DNA of 64,000 nt, from contig JAADVB010000057.1 of assembly GCA_023334545.1 (NCBI GenBank), positions 1-64,000 on the forward strand, written 5' to 3'. The notes beneath the pieces were generated by a model, which made no database searches, had not been told where the DNA came from, and worked only from the letters and a program-made list of their open reading frames with translations. Every line of letters begins with the position of its first letter. Within the stretch, counting starts at the first letter, position 1. The position numbers and the translations under genes were made by a program. Below are positions 4,802-17,587 of this stretch, one piece after another. The stretch is from Salisapilia sapeloensis. Its lineage: Eukaryota > Oomycota > Peronosporomycetes > Peronosporales > Salisapiliaceae.

Positions 4802-6219
4802 TCAGAGCGTGGCGTTGAAGACTGGGTTGTGGCGGGCGATCCTCGGCCCTTCCTCCTCGTACTGGGCTTTCGTGTGGCACACGCGCTGAAAGTCCGGTGT
4901 CGACGCCACCATGCTGCCTCCGAACCAGACGGCGAAGCGCTGCATCTTGTGAGACAGCACGTTCACATCTAGCTCCTGCGCCTGGAGGTTGGCGTTGTAC
5001 TCCTTGTGCAACGCCAGGTTCTGCTGCTGCCGATCGTCCACCAGACGCTTGATGTCTCTCTGCAGTCGCCGACCAAAGTCCTTGAACATGGTGCTGCCGC
5101 CGGACAGAACAATGTTCTTGTACAATCCACGTCGAGTGTCGATGGGGCACTTGAGGATGGCGTCATCGACGACATTCGGCAGAGGCTTGGTGAAGTCTGT
5201 GGAAAAGATCTCTGGGTTGAAGAAGATCTCTGGTGCCAAGAAGCGCTCAAAGCCGACGTCAATCTCCCACGGTTGCTTCGTGCGAGGGTTCAGCTCCGAG
5301 TACTTGAGGAAATATTTGTCTGGCTTTTGGTCGTACTTGCCAAACTCCTTCACGAGGTCCGGACAGACGTAGCTGTAGTTCTCCTTTAGCTTCCGAGCCA
5401 CATCCAACGACTCTTCCGGAGGAACAGCCTCGCCTCGATCACGCAAGAGCTTCTGGATAAAGTGCGTCACGTCTCGACCGGCAAGAGGCACGTGGCTGAT
5501 GCAGCTGCCAATGACGTATCCGTCCGCCACGGGAATGACGTGGGTGACGCCGTCTCCAGAGTCGATGACGGTGCCCGTCAGAGAGCGCTGGCTCGGATCT
5601 TTCACCTTGGGCCATGACGCATACAGTGCCAGCACAGCCTGGACGGCAATGTACAGTCCCGGGACGTTGAATGTCTCGAACATGATTTCGGCCGTGGCTT
5701 CTCGGTTCTCTGGCGGATTGAGAGGGGGTTCCGTCAGTAGCACGTTGTGCTCTCCAGGCTCGCACCGCAAGTACTGGAACATGGATCGCTGCCACATTTT
5801 CTCCATGTGATCCCAGTTCTGGATGATGCCTTGAGAGATGGGGTAGTGCACCTGGTGCGTGGACGAATGGGCCAGCGCTTCGTCACCGATGTAAAAGTCG
5901 AGATCGTCAATGCCTTGTCGACTGCGCACGGTCGATGAGGACGCTGACTCGTTCCCGACGGCGATTGTGGATGGGATGATGTAGCTTGGTTCAGCATTAC
6001 CGGCGTACCCGAGCTTTGTGTACCTTTAGACAGTGTTAGCATAGGATTCGGATGTAAAAGGAAGGGGAAGAAGCGATCGGCACGTTCGATCGTGTCAGAT
6101 CTTGCTTCGTTCCACTCTTGAATAGCGCGATCGAGCATCACACGCAACATGAAAAAGCTTCAAAGGAAAACGTACCCGGTGCCATTGTCAATGACGACGG
6201 TAGGTTTCGATGACGCCAT
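4802..6219 (-). CDS. ARP3: Actin-related protein 3 (Arp2/3 complex)
   Basis: Exon 1 (6219..6176) encodes [15 protein letters not shown] and exon 2 is 6023..4802. They are joined across a 152-bp intron (6175..6024), the longest coding intron in the window. The product is 421 residues, close to the usual 418 or so for Arp3. Nucleotide-binding loops of the actin fold are visible: [15 protein letters not shown] near the N-terminus, [14 protein letters not shown] near residue 170 and LSGGSTMF near residue 320. The C-terminus ([13 protein letters not shown]...) is typical of Arp3. It forms, with Arp2, the nucleating surface for branched actin filaments in growth and endocytosis. Two CCAAT boxes lie about 150-185 bp upstream. 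Confidence 0.96.
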
Positions 6220-13154: not shown

Positions 13155-16100
13155 TCATGATGCAGGAGGCTTGTCATGCAGACTGTCGCTCATCATCGCA
13201 TCCGGCATAGCCATCTCCTCCGACGTCGGTGCTGCAGACACGCTCGAGCTTGAGCTGCTTTGTTGGCTCAGCACCGTGCTGCTCGGCAAGGCGTTCGAGT
13301 TGCTCAGTAGCCTCGCGATCATCGCCACTTTCTGGGCTTCGCTCGCGTCCCGTCGGTTCAGAATCGACTGGATTTTGAGCTTCACCGCAGGCTGGCGGTC
13401 CAGCACGGCGAGCAACGACTGGCTGCTCGAGCTATTCATACGACTGCTCGATCCTCCTAGTGCCTGTCCTCCCCACGTCGACGTCGATCCGGTCTGGTAG
13501 GACGCGTGAGACGCATCCAATGCACTCGACGCTGTCGTTGCGTCCTGAGAAGCCGAAGAGTACGAGCTGCGTGGTCCGAGTGACACGGCACTCAGATGCT
13601 GCACACTTGGCGATGCAGTGGACGCGATGGATGGTGTCAACGTCGGTGTGGACGTTACGCTTACGCTCGGAGACTGTGTGTTGCTAATAGGGGCGCTCGA
13701 ATTGGCAGAAGCGACGGCTGCTGCGGCCTGCACAGCTGCAACTGCCGCCTCTTTGCTCTTGCGAATGACGTCGTCAGGTGGTAACGCGTGCGACGGCAGG
13801 AGAGCGATCAAGTCCGAGTGAGACTTGTGGGGTGCAGGCAGATTCGACAAGTGGGCTGCGCTCTGTGTCGGCAGCGCAGGCGGCGGCACTTTCTTCTTCA
13901 TGCTCTGGACGATCGCGTCGAACGAGTTGCGTAGCGACGCACTAGTGTTCTTCCTCTTGGCCTTGTCTGCTGCAGTCTGCAAAGACGCCGCTGCGTCTGC
14001 TTGCTGCTTTCGTTCCTGCGCACTCTGATGCACAAACGTATCGGCTGCATCCGTGTGCACCTTTGGAGGAGGCACACCGAGCGCGTCCTGGTACTTTACA
14101 AGCACTTCATCAGGAGAGACGCCGACGACCATTTCAAGCTCATCGTCCGGCACAGGCTCTCCCTTCCACTTGATGCCAGTGAAGGAGGACGCCGGAGCAC
14201 CAGACTTTCCTGTTGCCAGCAGCTTGTTATACCGGTCGTAGCACTGCCTCGGAGATCTTCTTCGATAGCACCAGGCAGAGGAGCTGCTGCGCGAGTTGAG
14301 GCAATGGGACACGAGCGCCCAGTTGCTGCCGTACCACCGCACGAGCGTCACGAGCAACGCGTCATCCCGTGCACTCCACTTATCCTTCTTGACGGCCTCG
14401 GCGCCACTCCTCTTGTTTCGTGCAGCCTTTGCCTTCTTGGTCGACTTGTGCGGTCGTCCAGACGACGTCTGGGCAGCCGACATCTCGGATGCACTGGATG
14501 AGATAGCTCCTGCATCGTCCAGTCCAGGACCAAGCAGCAAGGATGAAGGATCGTCCCACGACGTAGCGTCCAAAGCATCTAGGTTGGTGTCTCCCCAGAA
14601 GTCGTCGTCGTCCAGATCCGAGAGCTCCATCTTACGTTTGTCTGACGACCTTCTGCTGCTAGATAGCTTCGCATGCTTGGGCTTCCTCCCCTTCTTACTC
14701 GGTTCGACAGGCTTCGGGGGTTCTGCCTCCTGGTACGAAATAGCGTACGTCTGCTGATGGTACTGCGGATCGCCCACTTCGACCATGACCTTCTTATCAG
14801 GGTCGAGCGCCAAGTCGTACACTTCATAATGGACCTCATCGCCGTTGCGACGCAGACTATCGAGACCATCTACGTACAGAGGAGTGGAGAGCAAGCGCTG
14901 CTGCTTGTCCAGGACAGCAAGCTGTTCAAAGCTGCTGCTATTGACGTTCTGCATGGCATAAGACACTGCCTCGTCCACGTGCTGGTCCTTGTGCTCTTTC
15001 ACCTTCTCCAGCCAATTGACAGCGTACCACTCGACCGAGCTCAACTCATCCGTCTGCGCCAGCAGCAGATGCTCCTCCGGGTCCAGCTCCTGATCTTCCA
15101 GTCCAGACTGACAGTACCCCCTCTCAGCTTCCTTTACCTCTCTCTTATCCAGAGACGGCTTGCCCCACCACCCAGGCGTCTCCACTTGCACCGAGGCCAC
15201 CTGCAAGAGCTCTTGCGGAGACAGCGAAGCAAAGGTCTTTTCACTCAGACACGATCCGACCTGGAGCAACGACGCTTCTACGCTTTCCTCTGTATGCAGA
15301 CGGTAGACTGCCAGCGTCTCCCCCAGCTTCTCTCCGGCCACTTGCGCAAAAGACGCACGTAGCTTGGCGTCGACCATGGCATTCCAGTCACCATCCACTA
15401 CGACCACGGCGTCAGCTCCGAACGGGACGCTCGCTCGTCCATTCTTCTGCAACCTCGTGGGAAGTAGCGCCACCTGCGCCTGCTTCAACGCAAATTGCCG
15501 CATACTCTTCTGCACAAGAGCCTTTCGTCCGACTGTCGTGACAGCGCTTATACCCAAAACGTCCAGCAGTAGCTCTAGCACAGGGAGAAGAGACTCCAGC
15601 TGCACATACAACGCGACTCTCTTTTCCTCTTTAACGAGTCTCAGCAAGAGAGCGCATAGCTCACTGAGCTTCCCAGAGCAAGATTCGAAGAGAGCTCGGT
15701 CGGCCTGAGCCAGCTTCTCCTTGTCGGCAGGCAGTTCGACGCAGTTGCAGATACTCCGCAGTCGCAAGAGCAGCTGCATCCAGTCTTTAAACGTCGAAGA
15801 GGAAAAGCAAGAAACGGCAGACCGGTACTGCGCCTGCTGGGATGACGTCAGCTTACACGCGACGCTAGTCTCCTCCACCTTGCCCAGCTGATGCTCTCGG
15901 TCGGACCGTCTTCGACGCAGTCCGGCTGCGTGCAGGAGGAATAGGGAGATGGTGCACCCGCGTCGAGTCTCCTTGGACGTCGAGACGGTGCAGAGGGCAT
16001 CGATAGCCGACGCAGACTTCCTCCTGGAGGAAAAGGTGTGGCTGAGAGACTCATACGACACGCACCCACCTTTCTGTTCAAATAAGGCAAAGAGGAAGGA

Positions 16101-17587
16101 GGCATAGGCCTGCTGCAGTGCTGACGACCCCCACGACTCTGGTAATGCAGAGCTCATCAAGACTCTTGTCTGAGACTGCTGGACGCTGGACAGACGCTGG
16201 ACGACTTGTATGTCCTGGAAGACTGCGTTGCGCGGATCAAAGTCCATGACGATGCTCCCCCACTTGTCAAACGCCGTGATCTGGTCCATGTCTGTAGCCA
16301 GGACAGAAGAGGGGCAGACGACGCACTTGATCCTGTCAACCTGCTGCTCCACGAGACGGACGACATCCAGAGCGGCAATGTTACTGTCCCACTGGCGTCT
16401 CAACCGCTCTCGACTGCGACTGCTCGGTCCGTCATACACCTGCAGCTCTTCCGTCGAAAAGTATTGAGAGAGACTCGATAGCCACTTGGGCACGTCATAC
16501 TCGTCCACGACGATCAAGTGGATATTTTCATCTAACATCCTCGCCTGCAGAAACTTGGACACGAGCAGGCTGGAGCCCATGCCCACCTGGTCGTTCACAA
16601 ACGCATTTAGCTGATGATCGAACACTTCTTCTAGATACTGAACGCCTTCGCTTTGAATCGCCTCTGGCTTGTCTTCCTGCGTTAACAGAGACAGCACATC
16701 CTGCACCTGCCTTTGCATCTTGCTCAGTGCCTTCTGGTCAACTGTCCTCCCTTCCATCGGCACCACCTCCACCTCTACATGCGCACTCTGTCCGTTGCTT
16801 TGCTCTTCCTTGGTATCGTCCAGTGTCTTCTCCCCGCTCTCCACTCTCATGCGCGTCCTCGCAGCCGTGCGTTCCATCGTCCGCCAAAAGGCAGCCATGA
16901 GCGACGCCACCTCCCTCCCCTTCTTCCGTCGCAGCTGCTCTTCCTGTCTCTCCTGTTCATCCAGCTTATCTCGCGCCTGCCGAGCCAAGTGAGACGAAAG
17001 AGCTAATCGCCACTTGCGCGTCTCACTAAAGTCCGTCGCCATCCACCGCATTTCATCCAGCAACAGGTCATGGTGGCTCTTGCGACGGCTCGAAGGTGGG
17101 GCACGAGGCAGCTGTCTCTTTCGAGTCAACTGACCTGTCTTGGACGCTACTTGGGACGCTGTCTCGACATACGAATCGAGGCTGGACTGGAACTCGGATG
17201 CGATCTCTTGAGGAGAACGCACAGGAGACAGTGGAACCTTCTCTGGAGATGGCACAGGCGCCTGAGAACTAGTTTTAGGACTAGTATGCTCCACCTTTTG
17301 CTTTTTCAACGGTGACGTCGGTTGCACATCTGGCTTTCGCTTTAAATCTGACGCACTGGACGCTGTGTCTACTTGAGGTTGCTCGCATGGAGGTGATGGC
17401 TCTCGCAAGCTCGATCGCTTCGTTACCAGCTCTCTATTGTCATCTCATAAATACTTGAAGTGGAGGCAAGATGACAAGGTGCATACTCTAGAAGCGACTC
17501 TTTGTACTCTATAATCTTACTCCGCAGCTCCTTTAAAAGCTCTGCCTCTGTCGCCGGGCCCTCGGGAACAGAACTCGTGCTTACCAT
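13155..17587 (-). CDS. HSA-SANT chromatin scaffold with a degenerate SNF2 ATPase domain (Eaf1/p400-like)
   Basis: Exon 1 (17587..17487, MVSTSSVPEG...) joins exon 2 (17433..13155) across a 53-bp intron; 1459 residues. The long exon lacks an in-frame ATG, which led me to exon 1; the join yields one continuous N-terminal helix. An HSA domain (about 150-222) is the platform for actin and Arp4 in NuA4/SWR1-type complexes. Residues about 290-780 follow the order of SNF2 helicase motifs, but the key residues are gone: motif I reads NDQVGMGSS instead of DEMGLGKT, and the DEAH position reads VMDFDPRN. A SANT domain lies at about 1050-1110, then an S/T/A-rich tail. Likely a NuA4-type acetyltransferase scaffold without ATPase activity. 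Exon 1 is a prediction. Confidence 0.85.

Follow-up and report, generated by a model that had tools for sequence, protein, structure and literature searches.

The combination of an HSA and a SANT domain marks the platform proteins of NuA4-type complexes (Eaf1, p400 and plant EAF1) as well as plant PIE1, and genes with both domains usually number no more than two per genome, according to one comparative study (PMC4358907). In the same text, p400 is treated as motor plus scaffold and Eaf1 as scaffold only, and the relation between them is discussed as fusion or separation of the ATPase domain. The roles described for Eaf1 are that its HSA domain serves ARP4, actin and DMAP1 and its SANT domain serves Tra1 (PMC5861120). 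In p400, the motor, its insertion domain and the RUVBL ring make up most of the BASE module, while the pre-HSA residues R807, K809 and H811 contact DMAP1 and the post-motor domain (PMC11995519). The window analysed here, a stretch of 64,000 nucleotides from the oomycete Salisapilia sapeloensis (assembly GCA_023334545.1, contig JAADVB010000057.1, positions 1 to 64,000), carries a gene for an HSA-SANT protein that appears to have kept the body of an SNF2 motor between the two domains without its catalytic residues.

The favoured explanation, given a probability of about two in three, is that a NuA4-type acetyltransferase complex of oomycetes has this protein as its HSA-SANT platform, that the protein's backbone is of the p400/SWR1 class, and that SNF2 catalysis and the inter-lobe insertion were lost, most simply once, before the split between Saprolegniales and Peronosporales/Pythiales. 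The gene lies on the minus strand (17587..13155) and reads as 1459 codons with no internal stop. Pfam matched HSA (PF07529, E 5e-9) and SANT/Myb (PF13921, E 2e-8) in the window protein, with the SNF2-related family PF00176 between them at E 6.3e-4, 19.4 bits against a cut-off of 24.9. An original prediction, made from the sequence by eye, had proposed an HSA-SANT scaffold with a dead SNF2 ATPase; its coordinates and its HSA-SNF2-SANT order agree with the gene model and the Pfam matches. Orthologues are collinear with the window protein over its whole length.

The SNF2 identity of the middle region was examined by profile searches and structure prediction. A six-frame PF00176 search of the genome returned 21 matches, the window gene not among them, so the single-sequence Pfam score is insufficient to decide the matter. 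When the window protein and 25 orthologues were used, PF00176 matched at E ≤0.01 in 26 of 26 rows (best 7e-21), and the 26-row profile matched SNF2 ATPases in the PDB with E values down to 2e-66. Template-free AlphaFold models of the window protein's own sequence resembled SNF2 motors in structure comparison, with a predicted local distance difference test (pLDDT) mostly >70 in the lobes, except for one stretch closing lobe 1. Two RecA-like SNF2 lobes were thus found by both the profile search and the models, as the original prediction had supposed for this region. An NCBIfam scan gave for lobe 2 a generic Snf2 match alone, far under its cut-off. The Pfam family HDA2-3 matched 14 of the 26 rows; intact BRM and SWR1 match it too, which makes this a likeness at the level of fold only. 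On these profiles and models, the middle region is predicted to be a folded SNF2 body without catalytic residues.

Loss of the catalytic motifs was counted in a 56-row alignment of the window protein and 55 oomycete or oomycete-like orthologues obtained from protein searches. The genera are Phytophthora, Globisporangium, Pythium, Plasmopara, Peronospora, Nothophytophthora, Lagenidium, Aphanomyces, Saprolegnia, Achlya and Thraustotheca; rows labelled lgn or jgi were assigned to oomycetes by similarity. Both glycines of the P-loop are kept in 51 of 51 covered rows and the Walker Lys in 48, the window having Ser and two rows (P0047 and P0058) Gln, the latter apparently a separate event from the window's Ser. 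The Thr/Ser that follows this Lys is found in a single row, the window, which has no Lys; the others carry Ala (46) or Pro (4). Lys and Thr/Ser of motif I (GxGK[ST]) therefore never occur together. Motif II (DExH) is present in 0 of 52 covered rows, four rows being without coverage, and motif VI of the HRIGQ type in 0 of 56. Neither motif III nor the GGLGIN stretch of motif V can be recognised in 23 rows inspected, one of which does not include motif III. Two sequences (P0063 and P0064) joined after the alignment and stand outside every count; a reading of P0064 by eye gave NDQLGTGKP, with DExH missing. In the control set, the 8 top-scoring of the 21 SNF2 loci in the same genome, every member has GKT, DE[AG]H and R[AC]HRIGQ.

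These counts extend the loss from one species to the oomycetes sampled. NDQVGMGSS in the Walker region and VMDFDPRN at the DEAH box lie where the original prediction had read them, and its dead motor is upheld by the profiles, the AlphaFold models and the orthologue counts, with GKT kept in none of the 51 rows. Of the two losses that it had proposed to look for in orthologues, that of the DEAH box is shared by the rows covered, and the catalytic Lys is kept in most of them. A tree built from 25 of the 56 rows separates five Saprolegniales from Peronosporales/Pythiales (100/100) and puts the window protein with the latter; its branch is very long and its precise position uncertain. Since the losses are common to both groups, one inactivation before their split is the simplest history. 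The motor has probably been dead since long ago with its shape retained, and loss of the Walker Lys in S. sapeloensis, judged from the rows aligned, looks like a later step. A search aimed at non-oomycete relatives gave 13 rows: two generic SNF2 proteins (P0065 and P0066) and 11 that again come from oomycetes or look oomycete-like. One Thraustotheca orthologue (P0055) has TPR repeats, seen in 1 of 26 rows and probably an adjacent gene merged in the gene model.

The long insertion between the lobes is also gone. Counted in the alignment, the gap from 'CNHP' to 'SGKL' is 20-23 amino acids in 56 of 56 rows. The same gap measures 263 amino acids in the SWR1-type protein of the same genome, 248-347 in five SWR1/INO80-type relatives from elsewhere, and 530 in p400 when taken to the later SGKL-like match (an earlier one lies at 85). 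Insert-free SNF2 controls from the same genome gave 19-24 amino acids, measured in 3 of 7. With a gap this short, a RUVBL ring bound in the manner of p400 is not expected.

To gauge conservation, 11 rows from Peronosporales/Pythiales were compared with 5 from Saprolegniales. Mean identity was 0.50 for HSA, 0.48 for lobe 2, 0.47 for the junction between the lobes, 0.42 for SANT, 0.33 for lobe 1 and 0.16-0.22 for the linkers. By this measure lobe 2 is about as constrained as HSA, although ATP hydrolysis would not be expected, and lobe 1 is less constrained. The window protein has the pre-HSA R-x-K-x-H, whose mapping onto the p400 residues is our own; in a seven-row alignment R and H are invariant and K is variable.

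Assignment to NuA4 draws on the architecture, the SANT match to p400 and Eaf1, an Eaf1-like motif behind SANT and the partners encoded in the same genome, and on this basis a NuA4 platform is likely. With hhalign, SANT matched p400 at E 2e-8 and, with the whole chain as query, Eaf1 at 8e-6. The post-SANT stretch F-x-AI-x-x-CMK matched yeast Eaf1 over 15 columns (E 1.2e-4, 0 of 60 shuffles as good); this stretch was picked after a PDB profile search had shown it. In the assembly searched (19.5 Mb in 452 contigs), HSA matches occur at three places, namely the window gene, a BRM-type protein (C285) and a SWR1-type protein (C97). The SWR1-type protein has intact motifs and no Pfam SANT match, and its open reading frame begins behind the HSA exon. 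This frame (L013; 19-4950, minus strand) continues into an F-box (PF12937, 4e-8) and a right-handed beta helix (PF13229, 1e-8), and may represent either a fusion of SWR1, F-box and beta helix or two genes with no intervening stop. DMAP1/Swc4, MRG, YL1, ING and Eaf6 are encoded, as is TIP49/RUVBL on two contigs. The FAT domain gave four matches, of which the one on C268 looks Tra1-like by eye. A literature search by title and start of abstract, which covered few subscription papers, returned no oomycete NuA4 platform and no dead p400 motor.

The origin of the dead motor is less clear-cut, and several results weigh against the favoured explanation. Summed lobe profile scores were ~161 bits for SRCAP and INO80, ~141 for p400 and ~130 for CHD/ISWI/DDM1, which puts p400 below SRCAP and INO80, and SRCAP also had the best PDB profile score. 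The lobes-only Foldseek list has ISW1 and CHD1 on top and p400 32nd. In the best lobe tree the dead clade, on a stem of ~1.8 changes per column, joins INO80 with weak support (65/77), and approximately unbiased tests rejected none of its placements with p400 (p-AU 0.22), with SWR1/p400 (0.17) or with a Snf2-like group (0.15). The first lobe tree held 14 of the 55 orthologues and the later two 13, from which the window protein, P0058 and P0066 were left out. When the part behind the lobes was searched alone against the PDB, MYB21 came first (3.7e-5) and Eaf1 second (0.011). A p400-like post-motor domain (WTPPTPP/VYKPPxPP) and a hydrophobic domain, first read by eye, are not claimed, as hhalign scored p400 no better than its shuffles (8 and 6 of 60). 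A block resembling LTPIEKYA scored 20.5 against p400, under one of five shuffles (23.1), and 37, at 27% probability, against the HSA-SNF2 protein P0008. Alternatively, an insertion-free SNF2 domain of another subfamily may have entered an Eaf1-type protein by fusion between its HSA and SANT, with decay following; a synthetic p400-like construct in which an SNF2 domain was placed in an Eaf1-type protein has been made in yeast (PMC4358907). Such a fusion would agree with the insertion missing in all 56 rows, the Snf2-like grouping left standing, DDM1 and SNF2 among the single-sequence matches of lobe 2, and the ISW1/CHD1 lead in Foldseek. It is nonetheless unlikely given the lower ISWI/CHD/DDM1 profile scores, the grouping of seven Snf2-like rows without the dead clade (100/99) and VIA Z, which prefers p400/SRCAP/INO80, by near-ties only. 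Decay of a p400/SWR1 motor is the simpler story.

The protein might also serve a SWR1-like or lineage-specific complex, with SANT for another partner. In NuA4 and SWR1 alike, HSA is the binding site of the ARP4/actin/SWC4 module, and plant PIE1, which has HSA, ATPase and SANT, is counted among the p400/SWR1 homologues (PMC4358907). Neither a MYST acetyltransferase, searched by family and with an Esa1-like query, nor EPL1 was found in the 19.5-Mb assembly, which is possibly incomplete, no genome known to hold them having been searched as a control; this negative also weighs against the NuA4 reading. Because Eaf6 and ING are present, we lean towards an assembly gap over intron splitting or real loss. 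We regard membership of such a complex as quite unlikely, given a SWR1-type protein that is encoded separately, has its motifs intact and shows no Pfam SANT match, the likeness of SANT to p400 and Eaf1, and the short Eaf1-like motif behind it. A single inactivation is in turn challenged by the letters that replace motif II, which differ by clade (ENEH type in one, EDM/EDF type in the other) and make separate losses in two clades possible. Similarly, the Walker Lys in 48 and both glycines in 51 of 51 rows leave nucleotide binding possible outside this species. An ATP/ADP-dependent switch without hydrolysis in the GxGK-bearing orthologues is improbable, however, as 50 of 51 rows have Ala or Pro in place of the Mg-holding Thr/Ser, DExH and HRIGQ are gone from every covered row, and the window and two other rows have lost the Lys. 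That the gene is a pseudogene, an assembly error or a chance resemblance is hardly credible: the weak single-sequence PF00176 score and the long branch could be read that way, but the 1459 open codons and the collinear orthologues contradict it, and the lobes were modelled mostly at pLDDT >70.

If the protein is a NuA4 platform with a decayed p400/SWR1-class motor, its HSA would gather actin, ARP4 and DMAP1, while SANT and the post-SANT motif would bind Tra1. Between HSA and SANT, the dead lobes may serve as a stiff spacer or as a docking surface for the nucleosome, for which Hda2/Hda3 offer a precedent, and H2A.Z exchange and remodelling would fall to the SWR1-type protein encoded separately. 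In live SNF2 enzymes, motifs Ia, III and V help to hold DNA. These motifs are altered in the dead clade, so any DNA contact by its lobes would be non-canonical. A more specific proposal is tentative and put at somewhat under even odds: a p400-like NuA4 motor was silenced and stripped of its insertion in the oomycete ancestor, and its lobes have since been selected as a non-catalytic module that places the acetyltransferase on the nucleosome.

Table 1. Features of the HSA-SANT gene, by position in the window.
Feature	Position	Strand	Remarks
Exon 1	17487..17587	minus	residues 1-33 and two bases of codon 34; by-eye likeness to Phytophthora N-termini
Intron, GT-AG, 53 bp	17434..17486	minus	predicted from frame and orthologue N-termini
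Exon 2, including stop codon	13155..17433	minus	
Pre-HSA and HSA helix, residues 136-231	16842..17129	minus	Pfam HSA at 16923-17096; R-x-K-x-H inside
SNF2-like N-terminal part	15744..16655	minus	PF00176 match, 19.4 bits, below cut-off
Dead motif I, NDQVGMGSS (vs DExGxGKT), residues 314-322	16569..16595	minus	
Dead motif II, VMDFDPRN (vs DExH), residues 429-436	16227..16250	minus	
Junction, 22 amino acids	15678..15743	minus	site of long insertion (248-530 amino acids measured) in SWR1/p400/INO80 relatives
SNF2-like lobe 2, residues 599-761	15252..15740	minus	conservation about that of HSA
Dead motif VI, DAKLRASFAQ	15342..15371	minus	intact relatives have DAQAQDRAHRIGQ
Post-motor block, LDPEEHLLL..DELSSVEWYAVN	14982..15089	minus	likeness to p400 LTPIEKYALN by eye and order; hhalign score no better than shuffles
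Acidic/aromatic block, DDDDFWGDTNLDALD	14523..14624	minus	conserved
SANT/Myb domain	14214..14387	minus	
Post-SANT motif, SFDAIVQSMKKK	13875..13937	minus	compare yeast Eaf1 FEAIRKCMKKR

Two further blocks of the protein are well conserved. The acidic/aromatic block (DDDDFWGDTNLDALD..SWDD, 14523-14624, minus strand) ranks first in conservation among 17 stretches when the two sides of the deepest oomycete split are set against each other (identity 0.61), and we guess at a slight likeness to histone-binding acidic motifs. A C-terminal block, LDRxPxxKxKIQxILNRxDxSEAQKVAMIARLL (13290-13418, minus strand), reaches 0.90 identity among the 11 Peronosporales/Pythiales rows and falls outside all four Pfam matches of the window protein. 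Elsewhere in the window, an open frame at 4805-6025 on the minus strand resembles by eye an actin-related protein, which we take to be of the Arp3 kind.

Compared with known systems, the protein has the same order of HSA, two SNF2 lobes and SANT as EP400/p400 and Domino, whose HSA is the closest and whose fold is among the closest. EP400/p400 keeps GKT, DE and the long insertion, whereas the window protein has lost motifs I, II and VI as well as the insertion; EP400/p400 also unites platform and motor in TIP60-p400, while in S. sapeloensis the SWR1-type motor is a separate protein. One p400 sequence, from monkey (P0060), itself departs from the SNF2 consensus, with DEMQ at motif II and DAKAQEWCDRIGRC at motif VI, where the SWR1 of this genome has DAQAQDRAHRIGQ; judging by these letters, other NuA4 motors may be eroding too. 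SWR1, SRCAP and PIE1 share HSA and INO80-family lobes with the window protein but have intact motifs and an insertion, and Pfam gave no SANT match for this genome's representative. To our knowledge, Hda2 and Hda3 do not have the HSA-SANT architecture. They likewise bring ATPase-less SNF2-like domains to a histone-modifying complex, where these are proposed as the DNA-binding scaffold of HDA1 (PMC7062823).

Yeast Eaf1, fission yeast Vid21 and plant EAF1 also have HSA and SANT and no active motor, and yeast Eaf1 shares the FEAIRKCMKKR motif. EAF1 is described as having no ATPase domain (PMC4358907), whereas here a conserved SNF2 body, predicted to be folded, lies between HSA and SANT. The original prediction had placed the gene as an intermediate on the way from p400 to Eaf1. 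In that literal form this is not supported, as the decay is shared across the oomycetes sampled and the motor is unplaced on the tree; an Eaf1-like state reached separately, along a parallel route, fits at least equally well. A lineage with a retained dead domain suggests that the motor body can be useful without catalysis, and offers natural material for asking what it does in NuA4/TIP60 beyond ATP hydrolysis. A further prediction is that, in oomycetes, separate complexes carry out H2A.Z exchange and H4 acetylation. If the tentative proposal of a silenced p400-like motor is true, loss of the motor from NuA4 platforms came about in at least two ways, with the ATPase domain absent in fungal and plant Eaf1 and a pseudo-motor kept in oomycetes.

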